A program made the position numbers and the translations under genes. Shown here one piece after another: positions 2 through 61,605 of a stretch of 64,000 nt of DNA; the first letter of the stretch is position 1, and each line of letters starts with the position of its first letter. The stretch is from Vulcanisaeta distributa JCM 11217 (GTDB lineage Archaea; Thermoproteota; Thermoprotei; Thermoproteales; Thermocladiaceae). The DNA lies in contig NZ_BBBJ01000003.1 in the NCBI RefSeq assembly GCF_001316005.1, positions 62,001 to 126,000 of the forward strand, read 5' to 3'. The notes below the pieces were generated by a model that made no database searches, was not told the DNA's origin, and was given only the letters and a program-made list of their open reading frames with translations.

Positions 2-679
2 CAGGAATACGCAAGTCTCATTAAGTACCTGAGGGCTAAGATCCTCGAGAGACTCGGCATTAAGGCTGATTATGAGATTGACCCAACACACCTAGTTAGG
101 ATTGCTGAACTTAAGTTTGGCGTTTTCGTATCGATAGAGAAGCTCATGTACTCAGACGGCATGATCAAGAGGGTCCTTAGGGGGGGTAGTATGGGTACCA
201 TAAGGCCAATAAAGAACTTACTTGAGGATTCAGTAACCGCTGCAATACACGCGGCCTTTTACGATCCAAGGTTCTCGCCGATATCCATTGCCGAGTTTAA
301 GAACTGCGTCCTAGAGGTTACAGTGATATCCCCCCCATTAATGGATGTTGATATGGAATGGGTTAGGAATAACATGGTGCTTGGATATCACGGGCTGTAC
401 ATCGTTGATTCAGGTAAGGCGACAATCCTACTTCCACAAAAGGTGATTGAGATTGCGGAGAATTACTATCAACGGACGAATAAGCAACTCGGCATTAGTG
501 ATTTCATGAAGGAGCTATGTGATTCACTAAAGATGTGTAATCCCACGAGCATTAAGGCCTTTAAGACTCAAATAATATATGAACTACGCCCTGATGGTAA
601 TGTCATTGAACGCAAACTTTACCTTAATAGGTTACTAAGCAATAATCTAAAGCAACAGGCCGTGGCTAATGGACAGTAG
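2..679 (+). CDS. AMMECR1-domain protein (5' end outside window)
   Basis: The frame is open from base 2, so the N-terminus lies outside the window. The visible part has the AMMECR1 fold signature: a segment ending FVSIEK, then GTIRP, then AAFYDPRFSPIS followed by LEVTVISPP, and a later GLYIVDSGKATILLPQ. These match the conserved blocks of the AMMECR1/TIGR00296 family, whose biochemical role is not established; a link to nucleotide or radical-SAM chemistry has been suggested for relatives. A seven-G run at about 180-186 encodes Arg-Gly-Gly where the family usually has a single Gly. The gene ends 56 bases before the next one, which has its own TATA-like element. Family assignment is good; function is unknown. 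Confidence 0.75.
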   Translation, partial: QEYASLIKYLRAKILERLGIKADYEIDPTHLVRIAELKFGVFVSIEKLMYSDGMIKRVLRGGSMGTIRPIKNLLEDSVTAAIHAAFYDPRFSPISIAEFKNCVLEVTVISPPLMDVDMEWVRNNMVLGYHGLYIVDSGKATILLPQKVIEIAENYYQRTNKQLGISDFMKELCDSLKMCNPTSIKAFKTQIIYELRPDGNVIERKLYLNRLLSNNLKQQAVANGQ

Positions 680-744
680 GATTATTAACGACATTTTAAA
701 CACTAAAGATTTATTAAATCGGCCTATATTAAGAATTGAGGTAT

Positions 745-1449
745 ATGCCGGTCATGATTAAGTTTTACATGGTTGTGGGTAGGGATGAGGCTTATGAAAA
801 CGCCATTAGAAGCGTTGTCACGGAAGTTAGGGAGAAATTTAAGGGCAGCGAGAGGAATGTTAATGCCACATTCATTAGGATAAAGCCTGAGGCTGTTGAT
901 GCAGCTCTCAATGCATTAAACATGCCTGAAAACCAAGTACCGCAGAACCTCATATACCTGGTCAAGTCTATGAAGCAGGATGGCGTGACATCGTTACCGG
1001 CATTAATAATCAACGGTAGGAAGATATACGAGGGTCAATTACCGCCGCCGGATGTGGTTAAGCAGACGGTAATGGATGAGGTAGTTACCGCATTATCACC
1101 GCCACAAGCACCACAGCCAGCGCAGCCCGTGGCGCCTATTCAACAGCCAACTCCCCCCCCACCACCAAGCACTCCTCCGCCAGTACAACCCCCCCCACCA
1201 CCTCCACCACCGCCTATAGAGACTAAGCAGCCGGTCGAGACCGCAAAGACCGAGGCCGTGGCTATCGAGAAACCGCAATTACCACCAATACCTACGGCGC
1301 AAGCGCCATTACCGAGTGGCGTAAAGATAGTGGTGGGTAGACCAAGCGATTGCAGAGAATGCATTTACTACGGCGCGAATACAGGTACATGCCTATTATT
1401 TGGGTATAAAATAGTCGACCCAACAAGGCCTCCATGCAAGTCCTCATAA
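745..1449 (+). CDS. Thioredoxin-fold protein with Pro-rich linker and C-terminal four-Cys motif
   Basis: Residues about 1-105 read like a thioredoxin/DsbA-type alpha/beta fold (MIKFYMVVG start, and SLPALIINGRKIYEG, which resembles the cis-Pro region), but no CxxC active site is visible in this part. Then come about 75 residues rich in Pro, Gln and Ala, and a C-terminal segment with four Cys (DCRECIYYG, GTCLLFG, RPPC) that could bind zinc or an Fe-S cluster. I chose ATG 745 over the upstream TTG 736 because an AT-rich TATA-like element (TTTATTAAA, about 710-718) lies about 30 bases upstream. Several 6-7 base C runs in the linker may be over-called. I do not recognise a named family. Confidence 0.6.
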   Translation: MPVMIKFYMVVGRDEAYENAIRSVVTEVREKFKGSERNVNATFIRIKPEAVDAALNALNMPENQVPQNLIYLVKSMKQDGVTSLPALIINGRKIYEGQLPPPDVVKQTVMDEVVTALSPPQAPQPAQPVAPIQQPTPPPPPSTPPPVQPPPPPPPPPIETKQPVETAKTEAVAIEKPQLPPIPTAQAPLPSGVKIVVGRPSDCRECIYYGANTGTCLLFGYKIVDPTRPPCKSS

Positions 1450-1465
1450 TATCCTTTTAAGCTAC

Positions 1466-1741
1466 TTATAGTATTAAATCCACGGTATCGCCAAGGGCCT
1501 GCCCAGGCAATCCTCGCCTAAACCTAACAAGTAACTGACCGTGCTTACCCCCCCATACCCTAAGTACACTCCCTATTATCTCAGTCCCTGTTTTTGATCT
1601 CCACACGACCTTGGCATTAATGAACTTAGCGGCGTCTATCGCGGTTTCAACGCCCGGCACTATGATTATAGCATCCCTTGAGTAACCAATAGTGCCTCTC
1701 CTTATTGAGTATATCCTAGCCTTAACTGTCCTTGCCTGCAT
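1466..1741 (-). CDS. rpl35ae: 50S ribosomal protein L35Ae
   Basis: Small basic protein of the L35Ae family, a component of the archaeal/eukaryotic large ribosomal subunit. The family signature is clear: an N-terminal RIYSIRRGT, then KVVWRSKTGTEIIG, then LLVRFRRGLPGQALGD near the end. The frame stays open to a GTG at 1759, but ATG 1741 (MQARTVKARIYS) is the better start. The TATA box on this strand (1767-1776) lies about 30 bases before it, too close to the upstream GTG for that codon to be transcribed. The gene converges on the thioredoxin-like gene. Confidence 0.9.
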   Translation of the reverse strand: MQARTVKARIYSIRRGTIGYSRDAIIIVPGVETAIDAAKFINAKVVWRSKTGTEIIGSVLRVWGGKHGQLLVRFRRGLPGQALGDTVDLIL

Positions 1742-1766
1742 CGACACGTTACAAACCACAGCCCAG

Positions 1767-1776
1767 AATTTTTAAG
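1767..1776 (-). promoter_or_regulatory. TATA box of rpl35ae
   Basis: On the minus strand the sequence is CTTAAAAATT, centred about 30 bases upstream of ATG 1741. Archaeal TATA boxes sit about 26 bases before the transcript start, so this supports a (near-)leaderless mRNA and decides the start codon. Inferred from position and composition only. Confidence 0.5.
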
Positions 1777-1854
1777 CGCTACTTTCGTGAGTAATCGTGG
1801 CTAAGTCCCCGGAGGAATAATGCTTAAATTCTACAATTAGCCTTTGCCTATCGA

Positions 1855-4387
1855 ATGCCAATAGCGAGGCTTATTGAGTATAAGATCGCACTACCGTCAG
1901 AGCATGCCTTTGACCTATTGATGAATATCGGTAGCGCCGGTTACTTCATGCCAATAAATAGGCCAGGAGTAATACCGGCGCCTAGGGTACCAGGTGAGTA
2001 TTCTGAGAAGATTAGGAGGGTTGAGGACATATCCAGGGAGTTAGGTAGAGTACTAAATCAATACTCAATACCACCACCATCAACTCCGCATGAGGTTAAG
2101 ATTAGCCTATTCAATGAACTCCTTGAGTACATAATTGAGGATGGCGAGGACCTGCTTACGAGGATTAGGCAATACCTGGACTCTATTGAGGGTGTTAGGA
2201 ATGAATACATGAGGTTGAGAGGTGTCGTCGATGTTATGTCATCCGTTGGTGAGGTCATTATGGAAAGGCTGAGGCATTTCTTAGTTGATATCGTTCCATT
2301 AAGTGAGGAGGACTTTAGCGAGTTTAGGAATGCGGTTGCTAATTACGGTGCTGAGGCACTGCCTGTGAAGGTTCAGGATAGGTTTTATGTACTGGTGGTA
2401 TACCCTGAATGGGCTAAGCAGGGACTATTAAATGCATATAAGTTATTTAACACGAATCCTCTTGAAGTACCTACCAACGCTGACCTGGGCTCCATGAAGA
2501 GTAAGTTGGCGGAGTTGGAGAGTAGGTTGGGAAGGCTTGAGCAGGAATTTCGAGATTTCCTGACCAAGGTTAGCGATAGGGCTTACGCGATTATTGACCT
2601 TTCAGATACAATAACTAATATAGTTAGGCAGTACATGGATTCGGCTATTCCTGAGGGTAAGGACGTAGGTGATAGGTTAACGCAGTTAATTAATTCGGTA
2701 AATGATGCTAGGAATAGAATTAGGGAGCTGGAGATAGTGCATGAGGTTCTAGGGTACATGAAGAAGGCCGGTATCTCCTTCGAGGGCCTTAGTAGGCTTA
2801 GGATCAGGGTATTCGCGATTAAGGGTGGCGTGAACGAGGACTTCATTAAGGGACTTATGTACATTAAACGTGATATTGAGGGTACGGACCTATCAATACT
2901 CACGCTCATAGAGCCTCCAGAGGACCTGGACGTGAAGTCACTGGGTAAGGAGGTTTATGAAATAGGTAGGGACTACCTAGTCGATATTAAGTCGGCATTT
3001 GAATTAACAGGTAGGGAGTTAACGGACCTAAGGTCTAGGCTTAAGGACCTGGAGAGGGAGTATGAGGAGTTTGTGAAGGAGTTTAACGAGGTCTCTACTT
3101 ACGGCGTTGATGGCATTAGTAAGGTCAGTGGTGATGTAGTGACGATCGCGGGTTACGTTAAGGAGAGCCTATCAAGTAAATTCGATGACTTATTAGCGTC
3201 ATTACTCAGTAAATTAGCCATTGATGCCAGGGTTAGGAAGGAGAGTAAGGTCGTTTATGTCAGGGAAATAGAGCCGGAGAAGGCGCCAACGCTTGAGGAG
3301 TATCCGAAGCCCATTGATGCGTTTAAGAAGATAACATACATGTATGGAGTACCGAAGTACACGGAGATAAGCCCAATAATACTAACCTTCATATTATTCC
3401 CAGCCTTCTACGGCTGGATGTACCCAGACCTGGGCCACGGCGTAGTACTATCCTTATTCGGCTATGCCCTGTACAAGTCCCGTTACAAGGGACCTAATGC
3501 CTTTCTACGCTCTATATTCGGTGGTAAGTACTCAACGTGGGGGTTGATATTCTTGATGGCGGGTATTTGGTCCATAGCATTCACCTTCATTGAAAGTGGT
3601 ACGGTATTTGGAATAGAGGTATTACCGGCGCCTTCAGGCTTGTTCATGTTAGTGGTACGGCATTGGAGGTGCTCTCCGACTCGATTTACGCAATGCTCAC
3701 GGTGTCAATAATTGTTGGTATAGTATCATTATTGTTGGCATTCGCATTTAAGGCAATTAATGCCTACAGGGGGGGTGGTGAGAGGGACTTGGCCATTGGA
3801 TTCTATGTACCACTGTTCTTCTTCTTCTTATTCCTTGTACTTGCCCTAATGGGCCGGGGGGGTTCGTGCCAGTCATAAGAATTGGTGAAAAGACCCCACT
3901 ATTACAGCCGTTATACCCCCTATTCAACGTAATAAAGAGCTTAATGTGGTATTGGGTATACGCCGTGTTTGCTACGTTAGTAATACTAGTGTATTCACTG
4001 TTTTACTTCAGGGCTAAGTATAGGGGGGGTGTTCCTGGATTTAGTGTTGCGCAATTAGCCGTTGAGGTTGGTGCTGAGGCTGCAATACCAAGTCTCACGA
4101 ATACTATATCCTTCATGAGGCTGAGTATTGTGGCTATAATGCACGCCGTATTCACGGCAATGACTTACGCATGGGCAACATCCCTTGGGTTACTGACCCC
4201 CCCAGCCGGTTTAGCCGTATTGATAGTCTTCAACCTATTAATAATACTTGGTGAGGGCTTTGTAGCCTTTGTGCAAAGTCTTAGGCTTCACTTCTATGAG
4301 ATGTACACGAAGTTCTTCAGCGGTGCCGGTGTATTATTTATACCATTCACACTGGGCTTAAGGTGGGTTAGGCTTCTCATAGTCTAG
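1855..4387 (+). CDS. atpI: A-type ATP synthase/V-type ATPase subunit I (two frame breaks)
   Basis: Subunit a/I of the archaeal A-type ATPase, the membrane stator that carries the proton (or sodium) half-channels. The first about 480 residues are the long coiled-coil cytoplasmic domain; then come ITYMYGVPKYTEISP and YGWMYPDLGHG, classic for the family, and about seven membrane segments. The frame is broken twice: near 3654, where GGG appears as GG inside the expected FMLVGTALEVLS, and at the G run 3857-3863, where five G restore the frame and seven are present. Spliced, the protein is about 840 residues, a little longer than usual for the family. A TATA-like GCTTAAATT lies about 28 bases before ATG 1855. 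The other ATPase subunits are not in the window. Confidence 0.88.
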
Positions 4388-4430
4388 GTATAAAAAGTAT
4401 ATATAGGGCCTTAAGGTACTTATTAATTGC

Positions 4431-5844: not shown

Positions 5845-5926
5845 ATGGCTCTCTAAAAGGCTCTACTTTTAATTCTTAACAAATACCTATTTATTGTTGG
5901 GTTGCGAATTAATGAATTGAGGAGTA

Positions 5927-6887: not shown

Positions 6888-6935
6888 TTCGGTTCGTAAA
6901 TTATTTAATTCATAGAGTATTATTAATTCCTAGTA

Positions 6936-8115: not shown

Positions 8116-8156
8116 TGATGAATCCCTTATTAACTGGTTCCCGTATGTATTAAGTA

Positions 8157-12452: not shown

Positions 12453-12454
12453 AT

Positions 12455-18473: not shown

Positions 18474-18571
18474 ATGGCTCTCGAAAACAGCAAAATAAAC
18501 CTACCGCCCATATTCAATGAAATGAAAAAATTTATTTCCCCCCCATAAACAAGGCAAGAGCAGGGACCAGG

Positions 18572-18905
18572 CCTGGAGGGCCCACCCAGCCCTCCCCCCC
18601 TGGGCAAAACCCAGGCCGATGGGTTCGGAGGCCGAAACCCACGTACCGCCCTATACGGCAGGTCAGGGACCGCCGGTACCCCCCCGATGATAACCGGTCC
18701 CCCCCTGGGGCGTCCACGCCGTAGCCGGTCAACCGTAGGTTGGCTGGTTACGGAACCCGGCGAACCGGGTTAGGCCCGGGAGGGAGCGGCCCTAAGTCGG
18801 GGGGGTGGGCGCGTTCAGGGGGGGGTTGCCGGTTGGAGAATGGGCCGGCGAAATCCCTGGTCTGCCGTATAAGGTGGTACGTGGGGGGGTTGGGTCCCAT
18901 TTCAA
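18572..18905 (+). ncRNA. Signal recognition particle RNA (7S RNA)
   Basis: GC-rich island of about 320-335 nt in an AT-richer genome. The SRP54-binding helix 8 motif reads GGCCCGGGAGGGAGCGGCCC (18773-18792), close to the consensus GGYCCGGAAGGRAGCAGCCC. The long helix 5 is clear: 18642-18669 pairs with 18854-18881, with G-U and compensatory changes (TACCGCC against GGTGGTA and so on). The 5' and 3' ends (GGGCCCACCCA at 18578; TTGGGTCCC to 18898) can also pair, as in archaeal SRP RNA helix 1. The strand is fixed by the helix 8 motif. Six G/C runs in it are exactly seven long, so some helices may carry spurious bases. Ends are approximate. Confidence 0.85.
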
Positions 18906-18911
18906 CTCACG

Positions 18912-18923
18912 TTGTTTCGTTTT
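18912..18923 (+). terminator. T-rich terminator after the SRP RNA
   Basis: TTGTTTCGTTTT follows the closing helix by about 14 bases. Archaeal RNA polymerase terminates at short T tracts. Position alone supports this. Confidence 0.4.
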
Positions 18924-18986
18924 AACATGACGTAACTGGTCATTACATTATAATTGAATTGAGCGTTATTGATAATGAAAGATTGC

Positions 18987-22792: not shown

Positions 22793-23274
22793 ATGGTTAG
22801 GCGATTCGAGAAGAAGGCTAGGAAGTATAGGGGGGGTTCGAGGACTCATGGCTGGGGGGGTAGGGTTGGCCAACATAGGAAGAGCGGTTCCAGCGGTGGT
22901 AGGGGGGGTAGGTCAGGGCTTCATAAGCATAAGTGGTCGTTCGTGATGAAGTACGCAGAGGACTCAAGTGGTTACCCATTCTATGGTAAGCATGGCTTTA
23001 AGCAGCCCGAGACCATAGTTGCCGCAAGGCTTGGCATCAATGTTGGTGAGCTTGACTCAATGCTCGATGAATTGGTTAGTAAGGGGGGGTTGGTGCAGGT
23101 AGTTGATGGTAAGTACGTCGTTGATCTATTAAAGATTGGCTTTAATAAGTTGCTTGGTAGGGGGGGTAAGGTTAGTAAGCCCATGGTTGTTAAGGCCGTT
23201 TGGGTTTCGAGGAAGGCTGAGGAGAAGATCAGGGCTGCTGGGGGGGCTCTGTTGAGTTGGTGCGGGGGGGGTAG
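22793..23274 (+). CDS. rpl15: 50S ribosomal protein L15 (one frame break near the end)
   Basis: L15 with [27 protein letters not shown] and a C-terminal [18 protein letters not shown]. The break lies near 23248-23250 (GCTCTG, one base short); the repaired end is VELVRGG and a stop at 23272-23274. The universal motif [15 protein letters not shown] reads here with an extra Gly at two places (RGGS and WGGR), both at seven-G runs, the clearest sign that those runs are three bases too long. Ends 3 bases before secY. Confidence 0.9.
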
Positions 23275-23277
23275 TGC

Positions 23278-24724
23278 ATGGCTAATACTGGGCGTAGATT
23301 CATCGATGTTGTGGAGCCAATACTGCGTTATGTACCTACCGTGCCCAGGCCCAGGGAAGCCCTGAGCATGGGATCAAGGCTGTTCTGGACATTCCTGGCG
23401 GTAACCGTTTACTTATTAATGTCCATAACGCCGCTTTACGGATTAAGTCCTGTGACGCCGTCCTTCTTCCTATCACCGGCCATAGCGGCAATACTGGGCA
23501 TAACCTTCGGCACGCTCGCCCAATTAGGTATAACGCCGATAGTCGTGGCCGGCATAATACTTGAGATACTCGTTTTCTCGGACATGATAAACATAGACCT
23601 TGAGGACCCGGAGGACCAGGCTAAGTTCAATGCACTATTGAAGTTACTTGCAATAGTCTTTGGGCTTCTTGAGGCAGTGGCCCTGGTGACCAGTGGGCAG
23701 TTGGTCCCCGTTAACGCCCTCGGTGGGGGGGCCCTAATCGTACTTCAGCTGTTTATAGCCACAGTAATAATAATTCTAATGGATGACATGATATCCAAGG
23801 GATGGGGGGGACTGGGTAGTGGCATATCGCTGTTTATACTGGTGACGATAGTCAAGCAGATGTTTGCAATGGCGTTCTCACCATTTACCCTGCCAGGTTC
23901 CGTAATACCCTACGGTGCAATCCCCGCGTTAGCTGCGGCGATATACTACGCAATTGGTGGTAAGTTAACCTACCTAATGAGTATATTGTACCAGGTGAAT
24001 TTACCGAGCCTAACGGGCCTAATAGCACGGTAGCCCTGGCGCTCATAGTACTTTACCTGGAGCTCATGGAGTATCGATACCAGTGGCCCTCGTTCAGTAT
24101 AGGGGCTATAGGTACTCAGTGCCTCTGAAGCTCATGTACGTGTCGGTACTACCCATAATATTCACGGCATACACCGTGTATCTAATTGGCGAGGGGGGGC
24201 TAACACTCCTCTGGAGTGCATACAATAAAGCCAACACTAACCCATTCCTCAACTGGTTGGCCTGTGCCCACATGACACCGACAGGCCTGATACCATGCCC
24301 CAACTCACTGCTTTATTACTTCACGGTTGTGCCTAGGAACATCGACGCCGCTTACATAGCGGTTCACATAGTCATGTATGCGGTGTTGTCCGTAATCTTC
24401 GCCATAGTGTGGGTTAACTTAGCTGGCCTGAGTGCGGAGGATCAGGCTAAGTATATAGTTCAGGGTGGAATGCACATACCTGGATTTAGGCCTAGTCCCA
24501 AGGTCATTGCTAAGTTCCTCGATAGGTACGTCAGGATGCTCACAATAATTAGTGGCTTGATTGTCGGCGTTATAGCGGCCCTCGGCGATATTGCCGGCGT
24601 CTTTGGCGGTGGTATTGGCCTGATACTGGTTGTGGAGATCGTGATACAGTACTACACGCTGGCTCTGCAGGAGCAGTTGTTTGAGATTTACCCAGGCCTT
24701 AAGAGACTCCTTGGTAAGGAGTAG
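23278..24724 (+). CDS. secY: Preprotein translocase subunit SecY (two frame breaks)
   Basis: Central channel of the Sec translocon, ten transmembrane helices. Seen: plug region [33 protein letters not shown], after the breaks [20 protein letters not shown], and a C-terminal [19 protein letters not shown]. Breaks lie near 24019 (GGGG appears as GGG before CCTAATAGC) and near 24068 (GGG appears as GG in LMGVSIPV). The conserved KGWGLGSGIS reads [11 protein letters not shown] at a seven-G run (about 23803-23809). About 483 residues once repaired. Confidence 0.93.
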
Positions 24725-25850: not shown

Positions 25851-26893
25851 ATGGGTTTAAAGATTCATAGGCCCAAGCGCGGATCCATGGCCTACTACCC
25901 AAGGAAGCGAGCCGAGTCCCTAGTGGCCAAGTTTAGGGTATGGCCAGACCCACGCCCCGGCAAGCCCATTCTTCTCGGCTTTGCGGCTTATAAGGCGGGC
26001 ATGGCCCACGCCGTGGTAATTGATGATAGACCCACCAGTCCATTCTACGGTAAGGAGGTCGTTAGGCCAGTCACAATACTCGATGCGCCGCCCATTAAGG
26101 TGATAGCCTTTAGGGCATACACATATGATCCCTGGAAAAACCTGAAGTTAAGTCTTGGTGAGGTTTGGATGCCCGACGTACCTAAGGATATACTGAGGAA
26201 GATTCCGGTACTCCCCCCCGAGAAGTTCAATAAGGAGGAGATGATGAAGAAAATACTCGATAACGTAGACGTAATAACGGAGGTAAGGGCCATCGCAGCC
26301 ACACAACCAAGGCTTAGTGGTATTGGTAAGAAGACGCCGGAGATTCTCGAGATACCGATTGGCGGTGTTGATGACGTTAACCAAATAATTAAGTTCGCTG
26401 ATTCAATACTTGGTAAGGACGTAAACATCAATGACGTATTTAGCGAGGGCCAATACGTAGATGTCGCGGCAATAACTAAGGGCAAGGGGGGGCTACAGGG
26501 CGTTGTTAAGAGGTTTAACGTTAAGATACTGCCCAAGTGGCATAAGCATAGGAAGGGCTATAGAAGGATTGGAGCCATAGGCCCACAGAACCCGGCCCTA
26601 ACCTTCACGACGCCAAGACCTGGGCAAATGGGGGGGTTGCACAAGAGGACTGAGTATAACAAGAGAATACTTAGGATAGGCATGAATGGCGCGGAGGTTA
26701 CCCCCCCAAGCTCGGGATTTCCGCACTACGGCATTATTAAGGGGGGGCCGTACATCGTCCTCGAGGGCACGGTGCCCGGCGTTGTCAAGAGGCTTGTGAC
26801 GCTCAGGTTCCAGTGAGACCTAGGCCACCTACATACCCAACCGGTAAGGTTCAAATAGTCTGGCTATCAACACAGCCACTGCAGGGTGCGTGA
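25851..26893 (+). CDS. rpl3: 50S ribosomal protein L3 (one frame break near the end)
   Basis: L3: N-terminal RPKRGSMAYYPRKRAESL, then LLGFAAYKAGMAH, the loop WHKHRKGYRRIGAIGP, and TPRPGQM. The break is near 26814 (CCC appears as CC); repaired, the tail reads FPVRPRPPTYPTGKVQIVWL and stops at 26893. Four seven-base G/C runs add one residue each to conserved stretches: TKGKGGLQGV, GQMGGLHKRTEYN, VTPPSSG and IIKGGPY. Followed two bases later by rpl4. Confidence 0.93.
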
Positions 26894-40915: not shown

Positions 40916-42256
40916 ATGGGTGAGGAATCAAGTAAATGGTTTAAGATAGCAATTGAAGCCTCAAGGAGGTATGGAGGAAAGATAATGGTATTACCCAAGG
41001 TACCTGTCAGGAGCTTACAGGATTTCTCAATATGGTATACGCCGGGCGTTGCCGCGGTTTCCAAGGAAATAAATGCTAATGTTGATAAGTCCTTTGAGTA
41101 CACGTGGAGGTGGAATGCAATCGCGGTTTTAACCGATGGCAGTAGGGTCCTTGGGCTTGGTAATGTTGGTCCAGAGGCGGCTATGCCCGTCATGGAGGGT
41201 AAATCACTCCTCTTTAAGTATCTTGGTGGTGTTGATGCGGTGCCGCTGCCCATTAGGGCAAAGACCCAGGAAGATATTATCAACATAGCTAAGGCCATAG
41301 AACCAGCCTTCGGCGGCATAAATCTCGAGGATATCGAGTCGCCTAAATGCTTCTACGTACTTGATAAGTTAAGGGAGGAGTTGAAGATAGCTGTTTGGCA
41401 CGATGATCAGCAGGGAACGGCAGGCGCAATACTTGCTGGCTTAATAAATGCCTTTAAGATAGTCGGTAAGAAGCTTGAGGACTCAACAATAGCATTAATA
41501 GGCGCCGGCGCTTCCAACATAGCTGCTGCCAGGATACTGATTAAGTACGGAGTTAAGCCGGGCAATATAATACTAGTTGATAGTAAGGGAATACTGCACC
41601 CGGAGAGGGAGGATATGGATAAGTTAATGCTCACCAATCCGTGGAAGTACGAATTGGCGATAAAGACCAACGCCGAGAGAAGGAGGGGGGGTGGTATCAA
41701 GGAGGCTCTCGTTGGTGTTGACGCAGTTGTCGCCGCCTCAGTCCAGGGACCAGGTGTGATTAAGAAGGAGTGGGTCAGGGCAATGAATAAGGACCCAATA
41801 GTCTTTGCCCTAGCGAACCCAATACCGGAGATCTGGCCTTGGGAGGCTAAGGAGGCTGGTGCTAAGGTCGTGGCGACGGGTAGGAGCGACTTCCCCAATC
41901 AAGTCAATAATTCCCTGGTATTCCCAGGGGGGGTTTTCAGGGGGGGTGCATTGGATGCTAGGGTTAAGACGATAACCGATGATATGGTTATTGCGGCTGC
42001 CCAGGAGATTGCTAATTTCGTTGGGGATAAGCTGAGTGAGGATAAGATATTACCGACAATGGAGGAGTGGGATTTCTACCCAAGGGTTGCTGCGGCGGTT
42101 GCCGTGAAGGCTGCGGAGCAGGGTGTTGCCAGAAGGTCATTAACTTGGAAGGATGAGTATAACATGGCTAAGGAGATCATCGCCAATGCCAGGCTAATGA
42201 TTGAGACGCTTTATGGCAAGGGATTAATAAAGGATTTACTTAGTGACCTGGCGTAA
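40916..42256 (+). CDS. maeB: NAD(P)-dependent malic enzyme
   Basis: Oxidatively decarboxylates malate to pyruvate. 446 residues: malic N-domain [41 protein letters not shown]-type block, [10 protein letters not shown], Rossmann [17 protein letters not shown], and [14 protein letters not shown]. Intact. [15 protein letters not shown] shows an extra Gly twice relative to the universal FPGxFRGALD, both at seven-G runs (about 41928-41934 and 41941-41947). A TATA-like ATATAAATCC (about 40888-40897) lies about 25 bases before the start. Confidence 0.9.
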
Positions 42257-43379: not shown

Positions 43380-45747
43380 ATGGAACTAACATTTTGGTTG
43401 TTGGATATTACCTACGGCGTCGTGGGCAGCACGCCGGAGTTAAGGTTATTTGGTATTACGGATGATGGTAAGAGAGTTCTCGTTTTGGATAGGTCGTTCC
43501 GACCGTACTTCTACGTGATACCTACGGGCGACGTGAATGCCGTGCTTAATAACGTTAAGCGTAAGTTGGAGGGTAAGGTATTGAATGTGGAGGTTGTTAA
43601 GCGCAGGTTGTTTGGTAATGAAGTTGACGCCATTAAGGTTACTGCAACAATACCTGAGAAGGTTAGGGAGCTTAGGGAACTTGCTGCTGAGGTTCCGGGT
43701 GTTGAGGATGTGCTTGAGGCTGACATTAGGTTCTCGCAGAGGTACTTGCTGGACATGGGTGTTAAACCAAGTAATTGGGTTGTTGTTGATCAGTGTGAGG
43801 AGGTTAAGGGTAATTACCAGGTTGACCTGGTATGTCTCGCTAAGACTAAGCCTAGGATGATTGAGGAACATAAATTGCCCAATTTTAAGGTGCTTGCCTT
43901 CGACATCGAGGTTTATAACCCAAGGGGGGGTATGCCCAACCCTGATAGGGACCCCGTAATAATAATATCGACAATGACTAAGGAGGATGGCGTTAAAATG
44001 TTTGTGGCTGATGATAATAGGAATGACGCTAAGATAATTAGGGAGTTCCTGGATTACTTCAGGAAGTACGATCCAGACATAGTGGTTGGTTACAATAATA
44101 ATGGCTTTGATTGGCCCTACCTAATCAATAGGTCTTCAAGGGTGGGGGGGTTAGGCTGACCCTATCTAGGATGGGTAATCCACCAGAGCCCAGTGTGTAT
44201 GGTCACTGGTCAATAATAGGTAGGGCAAATGTCGACCTGTACAACTTCATTGAGGAGATTAATGAGATAAAGGTGAAGAGCCTGGACCGAGCAGCCGAAT
44301 TCTTCGGAATAATGAAGAGGAGTGAGCGTGTCTTAATACCTGGCCATAGAATACATGAGTATTGGGATGACAAGAATAAGCGTGAATTACTTCTTAAGTA
44401 TGCCAGGGATGACGTGGTCAGTACTTATGGACTAGCGGAGAAGCTGCTTCCATTTGCGATTCAGTTATCCTCGATATCAGGGCTTCCACTTGATCAGGTC
44501 GGTGCGGCCAGCGTTGGTGCTAGGGTTGAGTGGATGATATTTTACGAGGCGGTTAAGAGAGGTGAGTTGGCTCCTAACCGTGAGGAGAGACCATACGAGA
44601 CCTATAAGGGTGCCGTTGTGCTTGAGCCGAGGCCTGGGCTTCATGAGAACATAGCGTGATAGACTTCTCCAGTATGTACCCAAGCATAATGATGAAGTAT
44701 AACGTCTCACCGGACACACTGGTGCTTGGGGATTGCGGAGATTGCTATGTCGCGCCTGAGGTTAATTATAAGTTCAGAAAGTCACCTGAGGGATTGTACC
44801 CTGGCCTACTTAAGATTCTTGTTGAAAGTAGGCGTAGGGTGAGGGATTTAATGAAGAAGTATCCTGAGAATAGCCCTGAGTGGGTTCTACTTAATGAGAG
44901 ACAGAGGGCGCTTAAGGTTATGGCTAATGCCATGTATGGATACTGTGGTTGGTTGGGGGGGGCTAGGTGGTATAGGCGTGAGGTGGCTGAGGCTGTCACG
45001 GCATGGGGGGGCAGGAACCTGCTTAAGACCGTTATTGAGAAAGCCAGATCCCTGGGCCTACCAATAATCTATGGTGATACCGATAGCTTATTCGTTAAGA
45101 ATATTAGTGATAAGGTTGACGCATTAATCAACTACATAAATAATGAGCTTGGCTTTGAGGTTAAGGTTGATAAGGTGTATAGGAGGGTCTTGTTCACGGA
45201 GGCTAAGAAGAGGTATGTTGGCTTAACAATTGATGGTGAGGTGGATATTGTTGGTTTTGAGGCCGTTAGGGGCGATTGGGCTGAAATTGCCAAGGACGTT
45301 CAGGAAAACGTCGCGGAGATAGTATTGACCACGGGTGATGTTAGTAAGGCGGTTTCTTACGTTAAGTCTGTGATTGATAAGGTTAAGGCTTATCAATTCG
45401 ACATCGACGATGTAATTATTTGGAAGACGCTTGATAAGTCGTTGAATGAGTATAAGGTTTTAACGCCACACGTTGCTGCGGCTAAGCAGTTGGTGGAGGC
45501 TGGTTATAAGGTTGGTAAGGGTGACATGATTGGTTACGTAGTCGTTAAGGGCGGTGGCGCTAAGTTGGCCTATAAGGTTAAGCCGTACATACTTGTTAAG
45601 GATATTAGGGAGATTGATGTTGATTACTATGTTGAGAAGCAGATAGTTCCTGCCGCGATGAGGATACTCGAGGTTTTGGGGGGGATTAAGGAGTCACAGC
45701 TCATGGAGGGTAAGGCAGGTAAATCAATACTTGATTACTTCTCGTAA
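43380..45747 (+). CDS. polB: DNA polymerase family B (two frame breaks)
   Basis: Replicative or repair DNA polymerase with 3'-5' exonuclease. Exo I FDIEVYN, Exo II NNGFDWPYL, Exo III YARDDVVSTYGL; polymerase motifs A DFSSMYPSI, B KVMANAMYGY and C IYGDTDSLF; KKRYVGL before the thumb. About 785 residues. Breaks: at the G7 run at 44144-44150 (five G restore SSRVGVRLTL) and near 44653 (GG appears as G in ENIAVIDFSS). TAWGGR, WLGGARW and NPRGGMPNPD each carry one Gly too many at seven-G runs. Which B subfamily cannot be told by eye. Confidence 0.92.
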
Positions 45748-50234: not shown

Positions 50235-52107
50235 ATGAGATTATTATTCATACATGCAGAGGACTTCTCATACCAGGTTAGAGACAAGGCTGTTGAGAAT
50301 CCAGAACCACTAACGCCAGAGCTTGAGAAGGGCTTCGCAAAGAATGCGCTCGTGGTATTCATGAGCGTTGAGGAAAACGATACTGAGGATCCCAACTACG
50401 TGGATTACGTAGCTGATGAGATTCTGGACGTACTTAATAAGGTCAAGGCATCGCAAATAGTTCTCTACCCATACGCGCACCTAAGCCCCAACTTAGCCAA
50501 GCCAGGTAAGGCATTGAGTGTGTTGCTTGCGGTTTATAATAAGTTGAGGGAGAAGTCGCCGGTTCCTGTTTCGAGGGCGCCCTTTGGTTACTACAAGGCA
50601 TTTGACATTAAGTGCTATGGGCACCCCCCTATCGGAATTAAGTAAGTCCCTTAGTCCAAACATGGTTAGCGCCCAGGCAGTGCAGCAACAAGTGGTTAGT
50701 AGGGACTATTACGTAGTGCTAACGCCGAACGGTGAGGAGTACGATGCGACGAAGTACCCATTTAAGCCAGGTGAGGATGACCTAAAGGCATTGGTTGAGA
50801 AGGAGGTCTTGAAGAGGGAGCTTGAGGGTGGTAAGGAGCCCAGGTACATTGATTACTGCCGTAAATTCGGCTTTGAGTGGGAGCCCATGAGTGACGTGGG
50901 TCACATGAGGTATGGCCCAGCGGCCACGTTGATGATGGAGCTCGTCGAGGACTACGCATGGAGGTTGGCTAACGAGCTCGGCATACCCGTGTTTAAGATT
51001 AGGGGTACCAACATGTTTAGGCGTGGTGAGAGGGCTATTGATGAGCACGCCAGGTTATTCAATGAGAGGATGTACACAATTGAGGGTGATAAGGACGAGT
51101 TAATAATGAGGTACGCCGCCTGCTTCCAGCAATTCGCAATGATTAGGGATTGGGTGCTGAGTTATAGGGACATACCAATTGGCATGCTTGAGGTCGCTGA
51201 TAGCTATAGGTATGAGCAACCTGGCGAAACAGTGCTATGCTTCAGACTTAGGAGGTTCTATATGCCGGACCTCCATATATTCACGAGGGACCTCAAGAAC
51301 GCCATGGAGGTCGCCCTAAAACTCCATGAAATAATATTCAGAGAGATTAGGAAGTTGGGTAGGGATTACGTGAGCCTGTACAACGTAACTAAGCAGTTCT
51401 ATGATGAGCACAGGGATTACCTAATCGAGTTGGCTAGGCGTGAGGGTAAGCCAATACTCGTCAGGATAATGCCAGAGCAGAAGTATTACTGGGTCCTCAA
51501 TGTTGAGTTCCACATAGTTGATGAGTTGAGGAGGCCGAGGGAGATAGCCACGTTCCAGTTCGATGTTGGTAATGCCCAGAGATTTGGTATTAAGTATAGG
51601 GATGAGAATGGGGGGGAGGTTAGGTACCCAGTGATTATACACACTGCAATAATAGGTAGCGTTGAAAGGTACATATACGCACTTCTCGACACTGCGGCAA
51701 TTGCCGAGTCTAGGGGGGGTGAGGTTCCGAGGTTACCAACATGGGTCTCGCCAATACAGGTTAGGGTGATACCAATTAGTAAGGAGCACCTAACCTTTGC
51801 AAATGACGTTGCCTCGAAACTTGAGGATAGGATGATTAGGGTTGACGTTGATGATAGGTTTGACGAGACGCTGTCAAAGAGAGTTAGGGATGCAGAGACC
51901 TTCTGGGTACCCTACATCGTGGTGATTGGTGATAGGGAGGTTAAGACCGGTAAATTGAGCGTCAGGATTAGAGGTACTCAGAAGCCCGTTGATATGAGTG
52001 TTGACGAACTCATTGGCAGGATTGAGGAGGAGATTAAGGGTTATCCAAGGAGACCACTTACAATGCCTAAGTACCTAAGCATGAGACCTGCGAGCATAAT
52101 AACCTAA
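50235..52107 (+). CDS. thrS: Threonyl-tRNA synthetase, archaeal type with editing domain (one frame break)
   Basis: Charges tRNA-Thr. Residues about 1-133 are the archaeal editing domain (LLFIHAEDFSYQV, PFGYYKAFDIKCYGHP), then the class II catalytic core (DVGHMRYGPAATLM, KIRGTNMFRRGER, YRYEQPGE, RRFYMPDLHIF) and the anticodon-binding domain (VSPIQVRVIPIS). The break is in the C6 run at 50623-50628, where five C restore GHPLSELSKS, exactly at the domain boundary. Some crenarchaea do split editing and catalytic parts into two genes, but here the linker sequence is continuous, so I read one gene. DENGGEVRY has an extra Gly. Confidence 0.88.
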
Positions 52108-53109: not shown

Positions 53110-54279
53110 GTGGTTAGGTTTAGTGAATTACCGCCTGAATTCTGGAGGGAATTTAGGCTTTGGCGTAGTGTGGGTAATGAGCTTAATGGCTTGTCACCGC
53201 CTGGGAACTTCGTTGGTTCTATGAATTACCCCCACATTAATGTTGGTGCATTAATTAATGATGGTAGCATTGATGCATCAATACTTGACAACCCAGAGGA
53301 GTGGTTTAAGCATGGCTTCACACAATGGGATATTGTTAAGCTTAGGTCTAGGATAGTACTTAGTAGGATTAAGGTCTCGGTTAGGTCATTCAATAATTCC
53401 ATAGTCAATAAGATTCAGGAGTTAAGCATTGGGCGTAACCCAGTTGATGTTGAGGTTAGGTTGAGGAGGTTAGTGCTTAGGGCGTTGGCTGATGATTACC
53501 ACGCGCCGCTTGGTAATGTTGGTGAGTTAAGGGATTTGAGAATAACGTCTAATGTTAGTGCCGAGAGAATAGTTGAGAGGTTAATAAACGATTATGATGC
53601 GGATGCTAGGACGGCAGTCATTGAATTATACCGTGGTTCAATACCTGTGTCCCGCATACAACGTATCTTCGCAGTCGGGTTGTTGGGTGATAGGAGGTTT
53701 AGGAGGTTGGTTCCAACCAGGTGGTCTATAACGGCAGTCGACTCAATAATTGGTGATCACCTTAGGGATGAGGTTATTGAGTATGATGAGGTTGGGCAGG
53801 TGGAGGTTCACGAGATGGAGTACATGGGGAATAGGTACTTTGTGATACTTATGCCAGGTCCCTGGAGGTATGAACTCATTGAGTTGAAGATGCCCGGCTC
53901 GGTATGGAATAGGGGCGGTAGCTCGCCCAGGGTATTCGTAGACTACGAGGGGACGAGAGGCATGAAGGGGTATGCGGAGAGTACGGGTGGCGCGTTTTAC
54001 GCAATTAGGCTTGGCATCCTTGAATATCTCAATAAGGTTGGTAAGCAGGCATCGGCGATAGCAATTAGGGAGGTAACGCCGGAATATAAGGTTCCCGTTG
54101 GTATTTGGCAGGCGAGGGAGACTGTTAGGAATAGCATGGGGATTAATGTGAGGAGGTTTTCGGACGTTAATGAGGCGATTAATTACGTGAGCAACTCATT
54201 GCTAACAGGGAGTCTATGGCTTAATTACAGTCGACTAATCAGGGAGTTTAAGAGTGACTTGATTAAATTCCTCATTTAA
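53110..54279 (+). CDS. nreA: NreA-like DNA repair protein
   Basis: Archaeal Nre family, linked to survival of DNA damage and PCNA binding in haloarchaea. 389 residues: SPPGNFVGSMNYPHINVG at the N-terminus, ITAVDSIIGDHLRDEVIEY, ILMPGPWRYELIELKMPGSVW, and YAESTGGAFYAIRLGILEYL. The N-terminal zinc finger of the Nre class is not visible and I see no obvious PIP box at the C-terminus. Intact. TATA-like GATTTAAATTCC at about 53080-53091. Its end overlaps the convergent ctaB by 8 bases. Confidence 0.83.
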   Translation: MVRFSELPPEFWREFRLWRSVGNELNGLSPPGNFVGSMNYPHINVGALINDGSIDASILDNPEEWFKHGFTQWDIVKLRSRIVLSRIKVSVRSFNNSIVNKIQELSIGRNPVDVEVRLRRLVLRALADDYHAPLGNVGELRDLRITSNVSAERIVERLINDYDADARTAVIELYRGSIPVSRIQRIFAVGLLGDRRFRRLVPTRWSITAVDSIIGDHLRDEVIEYDEVGQVEVHEMEYMGNRYFVILMPGPWRYELIELKMPGSVWNRGGSSPRVFVDYEGTRGMKGYAESTGGAFYAIRLGILEYLNKVGKQASAIAIREVTPEYKVPVGIWQARETVRNSMGINVRRFSDVNEAINYVSNSLLTGSLWLNYSRLIREFKSDLIKFLI

Positions 54280-55123: not shown

Positions 55124-55278
55124 ATTCGATAATGATTAATTATTACATTAAAAACTTTATTTCAAAATCCATGCTAAGGTAATTAGTGAATACCTGTTCA
55201 ATTAATTTAACATTAACAACCCAACCCCCCCTTATTTTATTTAATAACAATAAAGCCTAAACAGCGCTCATTAATAAT

Positions 55279-56889: not shown

Positions 56890-56955
56890 TTCAAGTATAA
56901 TTTGAGTATAATAGAGTCAGGTAAAACTTTTATTGCACTCTCGTGAACGGTTATT

Positions 56956-57924: not shown

Positions 57925-57939
57925 GGATTATATTTATTA

Positions 57940-58314: not shown

Positions 58315-58366
58315 TCAGCTTAGCCCAGCACATCATTGGTCAGGCCTTGCAAGCATCATCACTTAA
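58311..58366 (-). ncRNA. Box C/D guide sRNA in the 3' UTR of the DUF2848 gene
   Basis: On the minus strand: C GTGATGA (58356-58362), 12-nt guide TGCTTGCAAGGC, D' CTGA (58340-58343), C' ATGATGT (58330-58336), 11-nt guide GCTGGGCTAAG, D CTGA (58315-58318). It begins just after the stop codon of the minus-strand gene at 58369, with no clear TATA box of its own, so it is probably processed from that mRNA. It also abuts the end of the plus-strand gene at 58314. Targets not recognised. Confidence 0.72.
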
Positions 58367-58368
58367 TG

Positions 58369-59046
58369 TCACTCAATCCAGTAATAATGATCTATGGACC
58401 TATTAAGTACTGGGTCGTAGAGCTCAATCTCGAAGTAACCACTGGGCTTTATCTGACCCTTTATTGTTGGTATTGTGCCTGAGAAAACAACCACATTCTT
58501 CAGGTCGGGCACGACCTCGCGTATTAAGTCAACGAGCTTCTCTGGCGTAAGTAGGAACTTCATGGTACCCTCCTGATATAGGGTCTTCTTATCGTCCTCA
58601 AGTATCCAACTCCTCAGTACCAAGTCATCCCAGTGATCCTCAATCTCCTTAAGCGGCCATGCCCTCCTCGCAACAATCTTTGGATACATGTGCTTACCAG
58701 CAAGTACGCTGCATCTCTCGGCCTCCCTATCCGTGTGATCACTACCAACAGTTACGTAGATCTCATCCTCATTCTTAATCAACAATACATACTCAACCTC
58801 ACCGCTGTGCAAGTCGCTTACCTTCCTAATGTAGTTGCTCGTGGTTACCAAGTACGGCTGTAATATGTATATTTCGGGTATGTTCTTAGGCCCACTAATG
58901 CCTATCCTACTTAGCTCCTCAACCTCCTTCTTAATAATGTCCGTAGTCCTCCCTGACCAGACAAAAATCACTAGGTCACTAACGGCGATTTCAATGTCTC
59001 TCTCATTACCGTTCTTAAACTCTATAGTTACATTAAGTCTATGCAT
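58369..59046 (-). CDS. DUF2848 family protein (FAH-like fold)
   Basis: 225 residues. The diagnostic stretch VTVGSDHTDREAER, PKIVARRAWPL and HWDDLVLRSWI places it in DUF2848, a family of enzymes related to fumarylacetoacetate hydrolase with unknown substrate. Intact. Its transcript probably runs on into the C/D sRNA at 58311-58366. Start ATG 59046; a TATA-like CTTTATAAACC on this strand (about 59060-59070) lies about 20 bases upstream. Confidence 0.8.
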   Translation of the reverse strand: MHRLNVTIEFKNGNERDIEIAVSDLVIFVWSGRTTDIIKKEVEELSRIGISGPKNIPEIYILQPYLVTTSNYIRKVSDLHSGEVEYVLLIKNEDEIYVTVGSDHTDREAERCSVLAGKHMYPKIVARRAWPLKEIEDHWDDLVLRSWILEDDKKTLYQEGTMKFLLTPEKLVDLIREVVPDLKNVVVFSGTIPTIKGQIKPSGYFEIELYDPVLNRSIDHYYWIE

Positions 59047-59151
59047 AGACGAACTCTGGTTTATAAAGCAATAACCTTATTAAATTTTTGGTTCCATATT
59101 CAGCCTAAGTGAACGGAAATACTAATAAAATCCTGATTCAACACTGTCGAG

Positions 59152-59613
59152 ATGATTTCTGAAATAGTCAGGGTGGGCCTCGTCTCGGAGATTAGGCTAA
59201 CAATACCGAGCGCTGATGATGCACTTGATTACCTAAGGCTAATGCTAAATAATCTAATAGGCTTGATGGCCTCAATACCCCCCCCAGCCCTGGCTCAAAG
59301 TGTCAAACCTGAGATACCGATATTCGTGAAGCCTGCCGATGGTGAAGCCGAAATATCAATACACTACTCACCTCTGATGCCATTAATAAGAATTAGAACG
59401 TCTAAGGACTTGATAAGTAAGGTGAGCGGTATTAACTTTATAGGTGTTGTATTAGATTCAGGAGGAACCATACTAAAGATGTACAAGAGTAAGGATGAGA
59501 TGAGTAGGGATAGGGAGAAGATACTCCTTCTCTTCAGGGTTTTCATGAACTCTGACGTAGAGTTGCAGCCATTACCAAGCGTGCCCAAGGGACAGGGCGG
59601 TGTCATCATTTGA
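59152..59613 (+). CDS. Conserved hypothetical protein upstream of L37Ae
   Basis: 153 residues, alpha/beta, soluble. Residues 1-45 are helical with hydrophobic faces (ALDYLRLMLNNLIGLMASIPPP); the rest contains VVLDSGGTILKMYKSKDEM. A seven-C run (about 59280-59286) encodes the Pro stretch and may be over-called. No family recognised. It heads the L37Ae-Brix-Pcc1 operon at a 49-base gap. Confidence 0.5.
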   Translation: MISEIVRVGLVSEIRLTIPSADDALDYLRLMLNNLIGLMASIPPPALAQSVKPEIPIFVKPADGEAEISIHYSPLMPLIRIRTSKDLISKVSGINFIGVVLDSGGTILKMYKSKDEMSRDREKILLLFRVFMNSDVELQPLPSVPKGQGGVII

Positions 59614-59662
59614 CGAAGTCATCGATAGAAATGCTTTTATTTAGTTAAATGCTAGGTCCCTG

Positions 59663-59941
59663 ATGCCATTTAGCCATACAAAGATTGTAGGGCCCACGGG
59701 AAGGTACGGCGCTAGGTATGGCATGGGCGTTAGAAGGAAGGTCCTACAAATAGAGGTTAAGCAGAGGGGTAAGCATAGGTGCCCAAGGTGTAAGTCACTG
59801 GTTAAAATGGAGAGGATAGCCTTTGGCATTTGGAGGTGCCCGAAGTGCGGTTATACCTTCGCCGGTGGTGCCTGGGTTCCACAGACGATAATGGGTAAAA
59901 CACTGGCTACCGAGGCTGCGGCTAAGCAAGGCACTAAGTGA
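59663..59941 (+). CDS. rpl37ae: 50S ribosomal protein L37Ae
   Basis: Zinc-ribbon ribosomal protein of 92 residues: GPTGRYGARYGMGVRRKV, then HRCPRCKSLVKMERIAFGIW and WRCPKCGYTFAGGAW, the usual C4 ribbon. Intact. Its stop overlaps the GTG start of the Brix gene. In archaea this gene commonly leads a cluster with Brix, Pcc1 and prefoldin, as here. Confidence 0.93.
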   Translation: MPFSHTKIVGPTGRYGARYGMGVRRKVLQIEVKQRGKHRCPRCKSLVKMERIAFGIWRCPKCGYTFAGGAWVPQTIMGKTLATEAAAKQGTK

Positions 59942-60544
59942 GTAATGCCATAATGGGCCTTATAGTATTAACATCATCAAGAGACGCCAGCATTAGAATG
60001 AGGCAATTCCTCAATGAATTGGAGTTGGTTATTCCAAATGCGGTTAAGGTGAATAGGGGGGGTAAGTCATCAATCATTGAGATTGCGGGTAAGGCATTAA
60101 GCTTGGGGGGGGCTAATAAGATACTTTATATTGGTTCTAGGGGGGGCGGCAATCCAGGGTTTATCCGGTTCCTAAGAGTTAAGGAGGGGGGGTAATTGAG
60201 GTATTGCCGTATTTAATAAGGATATTTGGTGTTAAATTGCTTATGGACATGCCCGTTAACGTTACGCATAGGCAAAAGGCGCGTAGCGGGGGGGTTGTGG
60301 TATCCCTGAGGGAGTATACGGAATTAATAGACATATTGGGCGAACAGCTTGAGCTGCCGAGTATGAGGTTTATGACTTTGAGAGCATTAGGGGGGGTATG
60401 TATGATGTTGTTTTCCTGATTCACAGAATTAATGGTGAGTATGAAGTACAAATATTAAATGGTAAAGACCTGGGGCCTTACGGTCCATTCCTGAGGATTA
60501 GCGATGTTATGTATACAAGGCTTAGGGTGATTAGGATTGAGTGA
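59938..60544 (+). CDS. Brix-domain ribosome biogenesis protein (two frame breaks)
   Basis: Archaeal single-domain Brix (Imp4-like) protein, an rRNA-processing factor. Seen: LIVLTSSRDASIRMRQFL, ALSLGG-ANKILYIGSRGG, GFIRFLRV, then YLIRIFGVKLLMDMPVNV and a C-terminal VVFLIHRINGEYEVQIL, GPFLRI. Breaks: G7 run at about 60186-60192 (five G restore KEGVIEVLPY) and the G7 run at about 60391-60397 (five G restore ALGGMYDVVF). About 200 residues. NRGGKSS and LSLGGANK also sit at seven-G runs. Confidence 0.85.
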
Positions 60545-60785
60545 GTGTGAATTTAGGGCAATGTTTCACTTGGAGGGTGTTGATAGGGAGTTGGTTATTA
60601 AGTCATTTAGGACTCTCGAAAAAGAGATGAGGTTTGGGAGGGGGGGGTTTGTGAGTGTTGATGTGCGTAATAATGACGTAGTAATAACGGTCTGCGCTAA
60701 GGACTTAACAAGCCTGAGGAGCCTAGTTAGTGGGGGGGTTATGAAGTCGCTATACCTAATATTCAAGGTTGAGGAGCTTGATTAA
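60537..60785 (+). CDS. pcc1: KEOPS complex subunit Pcc1
   Basis: 82 residues, the small dimerising subunit of KEOPS, which makes the t6A tRNA modification. The pattern FHLEGVDRELVIKSFRTLEKEM, VVITVCAKDLTSLRSLVSGG and a C-terminal YLIFKVEEL is typical. TTG 60537 overlaps the end of the Brix gene (8 bases). Two seven-G runs (FGRGGF, SGGVM) may each add a Gly. Confidence 0.82.
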   Translation: MSECEFRAMFHLEGVDRELVIKSFRTLEKEMRFGRGGFVSVDVRNNDVVITVCAKDLTSLRSLVSGGVMKSLYLIFKVEELD

Positions 60786-60871
60786 ATCGTGAATTCGCAT
60801 GTGTAGGGTGGTGTAACCCATAATTAACGTGAGGATTAATATTTATTAAGGCTTAGATCAATGGCGCCTTA

Positions 60872-61261
60872 ATGAGTTCATTACCACCATCGCTACAGTC
60901 AGACCTGGAGAAGCTTCAGGCACTGCAGGATCAATTAAATAGTGTTAGGGTTAGGAAGCAACAATTCGAGAGCGAGCTTAAGGAGGTTGAGAGGGCTATT
61001 TCGGAGATTGAGAAGATACCGGCTGAGAGTAAGGTCTATAAGATCGTCGGCTCATTCCTAGTCCTGGTAACCAAGGACCAAGCACTTCAGGAGCTTAAGG
61101 ATAGGAAGGAGCTCCTTGAACTTCATATAAAGACCTTGTCTAGGCAGGAGAGTATGTTGATGAAGCAGATTGAGGATTTGAGGACCCAGATAAATGAGGC
61201 GTTGGCGAAGCTCCAGGGTGGAGCCGGCGGGGGGGTGCTAAAGGCGGTGGTTAATGAGTAG
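60872..61261 (+). CDS. pfdB: Prefoldin subunit beta
   Basis: 129 residues, two long coiled coils (about 8-50 and 75-115) joined by a beta-hairpin (KVYKIVGSFLVLVTKDQAL), the architecture of prefoldin beta, which passes unfolded protein to the thermosome. Intact. A TATA-like AATATTTATTAAGG (about 60838-60851) precedes it, so it may have its own promoter. Its stop overlaps the next ATG by 8 bases. Confidence 0.92.
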   Translation: MSSLPPSLQSDLEKLQALQDQLNSVRVRKQQFESELKEVERAISEIEKIPAESKVYKIVGSFLVLVTKDQALQELKDRKELLELHIKTLSRQESMLMKQIEDLRTQINEALAKLQGGAGGGVLKAVVNE

Positions 61262-61605
61262 TAATAATGAAGTGCTTAATGAAATAGTTAATGTGGTTGC
61301 TGAGGAGGTTTATAAGTACTTGATGCGTAGGCTCCCTGAGAAGCTTCTTGAGGACATAGTAATTAATGTGGGGGGGTTTACAGACATTAGTAATTACACG
61401 CTTGAGATAAGCATTGATGCGATGACGAACCACTATTGAGGGGGGGCTTGACGACATCATTAATGACGCGGTTGAGTTTGGGTTTAAAATAGCGGATTAC
61501 CTAATGGATAAGTTTAGGAGGGGGGGTGAATTAATTGGTTTATCAGTTGGAGAAATTGAGAGAATTGCTGAGGAATACGCAAAGAGCCTGCGTAATAACA
61601 CATAG
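61254..61605 (+). CDS. DUF3194 family protein (one frame break)
   Basis: Small archaeal protein nearly always encoded after prefoldin beta. N-terminal NEVLNEIVNVVAEEVYKYLM, then VINVGGFTDISNYTLEISI; after the break LDDIINDAVEFGFKIADYLM and GLSVGEIERIAEEYAKSL. The break lies near 61430-61440 (ACTATTGAGG before a G7 run), exact repair unclear. About 117 residues. Overlaps the DHH gene by 71 bases if the DHH start at 61535 is right. Confidence 0.7.

Follow-up and report, generated by a model that had tools for sequence, protein, structure and literature searches.

The 64,000-nucleotide window of the Vulcanisaeta distributa JCM 11217 draft that we analysed contains 108 G/C runs of exactly seven bases and a further 11 of eight, on either strand (positions 1-64000), a pattern that extends through the whole genome. 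In this draft from a hot-spring archaeon, most G/C runs of at least four bases are about three bases too long; this stretching is almost certainly a sequencing error and not biology, and we put at roughly 90% the probability that the peak is an artefact of how the draft was sequenced and assembled. The histogram of G/C runs in the window rises sharply at length seven, with 64 runs of length four, 17 of five, 6 of six, 108 of seven, 11 of eight and none of nine or more, while A/T runs fall smoothly with length to a longest run of six. Under a first-order Markov model, the window would be expected to contain 347 four-runs and 8.7 seven-runs, and none of 50 simulations gave more than 16 seven-runs. 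The initial annotation had described a G/C peak at exactly seven, with few sixes or eights and nothing longer, and no such peak for A/T; both descriptions hold, and the whole-assembly histogram that it proposed gave 3,857 isolated G/C seven-runs (2031 + 1826) and no G/C run of nine or more, a length also absent from the genome of JCM 11216. The surplus of seven-runs was mirrored by a deficit of four-runs: AGGGGT occurs 507 times in the window's genome versus 1,909 times in the finished relative G008, and four- and seven-runs together amount to 285 per 100 kb, as against 291 four-runs per 100 kb in G008.

Alignment of the window's seven-runs to three single-contig relatives revealed four-runs opposite them in 80 of 86 comparisons. 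In a transition table against a finished relative, four-runs of G/C had become seven in 35 of 67 cases, while G/C runs of three were kept in 629 of 636 and A/T runs of four in 62 of 64; overall, G/C runs of two to three and A/T runs almost always have the same length as in relatives. Two clean genomes used as controls each kept 52 of 52 four-runs, and the equivalent table for JCM 11216 gave a change from four to seven in 47 of 70 cases. An alignment artefact that yields 2n-1 bases was considered and rejected, as runs of five become seven or eight and runs of three stay three. Relative to G008, 30 of the 35 four-to-seven sites lie inside open reading frames (ORFs) and five outside, which bears out the earlier argument that selection on reading frame does not explain the pattern. 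The change in length tracks the length and base of the run and not gene function or coding status, with coding sequence, non-coding sequence, SRP RNA and 23S rRNA affected alike. The proposal that many seven-runs sit where a four-run is needed does not extend to every affected site: at 26486 and 41927, for example, relatives have interrupted runs that are three bases shorter overall.

All eight runs originally singled out in conserved genes do have a length of seven, and Pfam matches confirm the identities of the L15, SecY (spread over two ORFs), L3, malic enzyme and family B DNA polymerase genes. All are G runs on the forward strand. In the L15 gene, the run at 22830-22836 is three bases shorter in G008, G004 and G010 and that at 22854-22860 is GGGG in the same three genomes, as are the runs at 23804-23810 in the SecY gene and 45005-45011 in the polymerase gene; JCM 11216 has seven at all four sites. 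In the malic enzyme gene, the run at 41940-41946 is likewise three bases shorter in G008, G004 and G010 and seven in JCM 11216, while that at 41927-41933 is three bases shorter in all four relatives compared. The same holds for 26630-26636 in the L3 gene, and at 26486-26492 in that gene the relatives, including JCM 11216, have interrupted G runs that are three bases shorter. The extra residues are absent from the single-contig relatives at eight of eight named sites, and the added glycines and prolines are a side effect of the addition of three bases. Three runs reported as untouched are indeed GGGG in the window, at 45269-45272, 51002-51005 and 53912-53915 on the forward strand; G008 and G004 also have GGGG at the second of these, and JCM 11216 has GGGGGGG at the first and third. 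The positions originally given for all these runs were accurate to within one base, save for the last, which had been placed at 53916. A gene described as GlmU-like, in which extra glycines had also been noted, could not be confirmed by family search, as the range queried contains stop codons and the region has short ORFs only, but relatives have plain GGGG at two of the four seven-runs inspected there (60140, 60186, 60288 and 60390).

Functional RNAs, which a real in-frame expansion would be expected to spare, were not spared. In approximately 2 kb of 23S rRNA, we found 41 insertions unique to the window's genome, versus zero or one in each of five relatives, which agree with one another in run length across this gene. 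The 23S rRNA was used because the 16S rRNA returned no match in the window's genome, and since the 23S rRNA returned none in JCM 11216 or Thermocladium modestius, the rRNA comparison is limited to one affected genome. The region of the SRP RNA gene (18594-18889, forward strand) contains six over-long G/C runs, beginning at 18594, 18679, 18699, 18799, 18818 and 18883, each exceeding its counterpart in G008 and G004 by three bases, and the SRP RNA score falls below Rfam's cut-off. Six runs of exactly seven had been claimed for this RNA; the number stands, but across 18560-18930 five are of seven and one is of eight. tRNAs, with none in the window and two in 28 stretches, were too few to help. 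As the 23S rRNA is equally affected, a working, inherited expansion is very unlikely.

Across 61 genomes the peak was found in only three: that of the window, Vulcanisaeta distributa JCM 11216 and Thermocladium modestius JCM 10088, the latter two being JCM drafts from different genera. Ten of eleven same-genus relatives have between zero and five seven-runs, and the sole exception is JCM 11216. Occurrence therefore follows the data set and not descent, as closer relatives are clean. The ceiling of eight is not absolute, given that T. modestius has eight runs that are longer. In two further JCM drafts it is the A/T runs of six that are anomalous, a mirror image of the G/C pattern, so that a nucleotide-specific, length-dependent error appears for G/C from length four in three drafts and for A/T at length six in two others, and losses of one base from GG occur in four JCM-type drafts. 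According to PMC8044849, similar long G runs are found in unrelated JCM drafts, among which Thermogymnomonas acidicola JCM 13583 is named. Our survey of 300 Thermoplasmata genomes, from which that strain was possibly not drawn, gave a highest count of 1,139, in a 3.6 Mb genome, and none with several thousand.

These comparisons bear on the two biological readings of the pattern. A lineage-specific mutational process that adds three bases, for instance by slippage on G/C tracts of at least four, would keep reading frames intact through its usual step of +3 and could account for the partial agreement in site status between the window and JCM 11216. We nevertheless regard it as extremely improbable, since the same inserts occur in SRP RNA and 23S rRNA, A/T runs are spared and the closest relatives do not share the expansion as descent would predict, the JCM 11216 agreement alone running contrary to this. 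In addition, JCM 11216 lacks the insert at three of the eight named sites, exactly where substitutions interrupt its run, which argues that the insert follows the letters and not ancestry. Of the two readings originally offered, a run-length artefact is thus strongly supported by the rRNA and SRP RNA inserts and by relatives without extra residues, while real in-frame expansion or mutational bias is unsupported. It is also conceivable that the sequencer over-called G/C tracts of at least four because of a genuine chemical property of these tracts in the hot-spring strains, whether base modification or unusually high structural stability, in which case the artefact would map biology. The membership of all three affected genomes in one family and the partial site agreement would suit such a feature, but the effect is absent from JCM 16159 and JCM 14467, which belong to the same genus, and similar long G runs are reported from unrelated JCM drafts, leaving this reading very unlikely.

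We therefore favour nucleotide-specific homopolymer over-calling, in which G/C homopolymers with a true length of at least four would be lengthened by a step: four would be written as seven between about one half and two thirds of the time, and five and six each as seven or eight, with shorter G/C runs and A/T runs almost always correct except for the occasional GG-to-G loss. The usual step of +3 leaves the reading frame intact at those sites, and proteins gain one glycine or proline. Flow-based sequencing (Ion Torrent PGM, 454), which derives run length from signal height, is known for homopolymer length errors, and Ion Torrent software probably recalibrates homopolymers separately for each nucleotide, with a threshold of four; a wrong calibration of this type may be the cause. 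The errors seen here resemble those of flow-based platforms: they are confined to homopolymers and symmetric between strands, and elsewhere single bases are lost and ORFs broken. They differ in their step of approximately +3, onset at four, restriction to G and C and peak at exactly seven, and a limited literature search brought up no account of a step of this kind from length four in G/C. No paper was found for the affected accessions. Descriptions of other JCM programme drafts name Ion PGM reads and Newbler 2.8, and by extension the over-calling probably arose in flow-based sequencing with Ion PGM and Newbler. Flow sequencing as such is insufficient, as the finished G008 was itself produced from 454 flow reads with Newbler, yet is without the effect. 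A fault in how the assembler or a polisher decoded the consensus or the run lengths, with the flow signal itself sound, is a less likely source: a faulty run-length table would also produce the sharp step, the usual ceiling of eight and the lack of strong context dependence, but signal calibration accounts at least equally well for the GG-to-G losses and for the thresholds that differ by nucleotide between the two groups of JCM drafts.

The distinction between affected and untouched four-runs was poorly predicted by flanking bases (AUC 0.50 to 0.60), and a flanking-base motif acting as a switch was rejected in the absence of a strong effect. Tests for local clustering along contigs were negative for G000 (p = 0.87) and for G020 (p = 0.27), and clustering in G003 was slight (p = 0.017). 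The window and JCM 11216 agree in site status more often than chance predicts (odds ratio 4.6, p = 0.002), an observation that counts against an artefact, as shared inheritance would also produce such agreement.

Through homopolymer over-calling, public data acquire spurious amino acids and spurious DNA-structure motifs. Proteins from affected drafts would carry false glycines and prolines within universal motifs, the two Vulcanisaeta drafts have fragmented ORFs, and the affected genomes score low in estimated completeness (67, 67 and 47%). The error is also present in two other public genomes of this family, one of which appears in a published G-quadruplex table: PMC7565180 lists T. modestius JCM 10088 at 7.381 motifs per kb, among the richest archaea, and PMC8044849 reports paired long G runs in it. 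The same genome is thus already an outlier in both surveys, and in the accessible portions of either text we found no treatment of it as a sequencing error. A histogram of G/C and A/T run lengths flags such assemblies immediately. By our own count in the style of G4Hunter, motif density is 2.17 to 2.91 per kb in the three affected genomes, versus 0.68 to 1.04 in G008, G004 and G010.

Within the window, G/C homopolymers of 4, 5, 6, 7 and 8 bases number 64, 17, 6, 108 and 11, respectively, and none exceeds 8, in agreement with the pile-up at exactly 7, with few runs of 6 or 8 and none longer, described in the initial annotation. The accompanying claim that A/T runs lack such a peak also holds, as the longest in the window is 6. 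A first-order Markov expectation for the window is 347 four-runs (G/C runs of exactly 4) and 8.7 seven-runs (exactly 7). Counting across the whole assembly (2,076,046 bases in 19 contigs, 67% complete) gave a distribution that is not flat, with 2031 + 1826 isolated seven-runs and no G/C run of nine. In a 264-kb sample, comprising the window and ten 20-kb stretches, four-runs had a density of 99.6 per 100 kb and seven-runs one of 185.6, 285 in sum; the finished genome taken to be V. distributa IC-017T (G008; 2,374,137 bases) has 291 four-runs per 100 kb and zero seven-runs in the 180 kb sampled.

To compare individual runs, the assembly was aligned to G008 at 85.5% identity, requiring matching flanks. 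This revealed that G/C 3-runs kept their length at 629/636 sites and A/T 4-runs at 62/64, while the 67 G/C 4-runs of G008 read 7 in 35 cases, 4 in 25, 5 or 6 in five and 1 or 3 in two, and its eight 5-runs read 7 in four, 8 in three and 5 in one. When two unaffected single-contig relatives, G004 and G010, were each compared with G008 as clean controls, four-runs were retained in 52/52 cases in each. In reverse, 50 of the 108 window seven-runs passed the flank rule, and opposite them G008, G004 and G010 carry a four-run in 80/86 comparisons, a five-run in 5/86 and a three-run in 1/86. Eight runs had been singled out as adding residues to conserved motifs of L15, L3, SecY, malic enzyme and a polymerase, genes whose names are supported by Pfam; all eight are 7 long in the window and 3 bases shorter in G008, G004 and G010. 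V. distributa JCM 11216 (G003) reads 7 at five of the eight sites; at the other three its run is interrupted by substitutions and the shorter form is present.

The same lengthening is found in functional RNAs. Over ungapped columns, a stretch of 2,080 bases from the 23S rRNA gene (contig C10) matches five relatives at 96.0 to 98.1% identity, yet it is 118 to 124 bases longer than its counterparts. At sites where all five relatives share one G/C run length, 2-runs are intact in 139/139 cases and 3-runs in 76/78, while the 26 4-runs read 7 in 14, 8 in one, 5 in three, 4 in seven and 3 in one; 5-runs read 7 or 8 in 8/9 and 6-runs in 4/4. This gene part holds 41 private insertions, of which 32 consist solely of G or solely of C, versus 0 or 1 in each relative. 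The non-coding SRP RNA in the window, as had been proposed, also carries over-long runs, with six sites each exceeding their G008 and G004 counterparts by 3 bases; it scores 77.9 bits, under Rfam's 96.5, compared with 135.5 in G004, 137.2 in G008, 133.4 in G010 and 112.8 in the affected JCM 11216. Ribosomal RNA with such inserts would presumably be usable by no cell. The initial annotation had left open whether the runs were an artefact or a real mutational bias, and the inserts in 23S rRNA and SRP RNA argue for the former and against a biological origin. We consider it almost certain (probability about 0.98) that the peak is a property of the record and not of the organism, an artefact of some kind.

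Thousands of isolated seven-runs occur in only three of 61 genomes surveyed, namely the assembly holding the window (3,857), JCM 11216 (NZ_BBBI; 4,803) and Thermocladium modestius JCM 10088 (BBBF; 7,958), the other 58 having 0 to 310. An even draw of 398 genomes from the phylum, which did not include T. modestius, returned only the first two as outliers, the next genome having 340. AGGGGT is correspondingly depleted, with 507 and 542 occurrences in the two Vulcanisaeta drafts versus 1,909 in G008, and 202 in T. modestius versus 775 in G014 of the same genus. JCM 11216 and T. modestius JCM 10088 are JCM drafts, and the assembly holding the window is presumably a draft from that collection too. 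In the class Thermoplasmata, three genomes of 1.8 to 3.6 Mb (G574, G654 and G678) each exceed 1,000 isolated seven-runs.

The error is governed by run length and base, beginning at 4 in G and C, sparing about a third of four-runs and usually ending at 8, a ceiling broken by T. modestius, which, unlike the two Vulcanisaeta drafts, has 8 G/C runs longer than 8. In flow-based sequencing, signal height gives run length, and therefore a wrong per-nucleotide calibration beyond a threshold would over-call G and C in this pattern; we consider such a flow-signal origin probable. Ion PGM reads and Newbler 2.8 are reported for other drafts of the JCM programme in PMC3907737 and PMC4031335; a literature search by the accessions of the affected records found no paper on them. 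Two observations do not fit a flow-signal origin neatly. G008 is clean despite its 454 flow reads, assembled with Newbler according to the sequencing description in PMC3035369. In addition, site status agrees between the window and JCM 11216 beyond chance (counts of 37, 14, 11 and 19; odds ratio 4.6, p = 0.002), although the bases on either side of a run are poor predictors of that status (AUC 0.50 to 0.60).

Two further JCM drafts show a second anomaly. In Vulcanisaeta sp. JCM 16159 (BBDN; stretches L170-L174 and L074) and JCM 14467 (BBDM; L175-L179), G/C runs are normal, A/T 6-runs are scarce (5 in 120 kb and 6 in 100 kb, versus 33 in 180 kb of G008), and A/T 7- and 8-runs are enriched (14 + 5 and 17 + 3, versus zero in G008). 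Comparison of the window, draft stretches L074 and L088 and stretches of JCM 11216 with G008 showed single-base loss from GG/CC pairs at 8/725 in JCM 16159, 3/414 in JCM 14467, 15/2800 in the window and 12/2827 in JCM 11216, versus 2/2485 and 3/2271 in clean controls. The two affected Vulcanisaeta drafts have 12.5 and 12.4 ORFs per 10 kb versus 9.8 to 10.0, such fragmentation accompanying the GG/CC losses; SecY is spread over two ORFs at 23278-24724 of the window.

The artefact has a consequence in print, as the affected T. modestius JCM 10088 appears, at 7.381 motifs per kb, in a table of archaea with more than 6 G-quadruplex motifs per kb (PMC7565180), together with Thermococcus celer JCM 8558 and Methanoculleus chikugoensis JCM 10825; high values are there possibly tied to extremophilic life. 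A second survey, which records paired long G runs in T. modestius JCM 10088 and also names Thermogymnomonas acidicola JCM 13583, put aside a set of genomes that includes T. modestius (PMC8044849). The terms homopolymer, artifact or artefact, sequencing error and Ion Torrent are absent from the main texts of both papers. A G4Hunter-style count gave 2.17 to 2.91 motifs per kb in the three affected genomes versus 0.68 to 1.04 in G008, G004 and G010, with JCM 16159 and JCM 14467 at 1.22 and 1.45.
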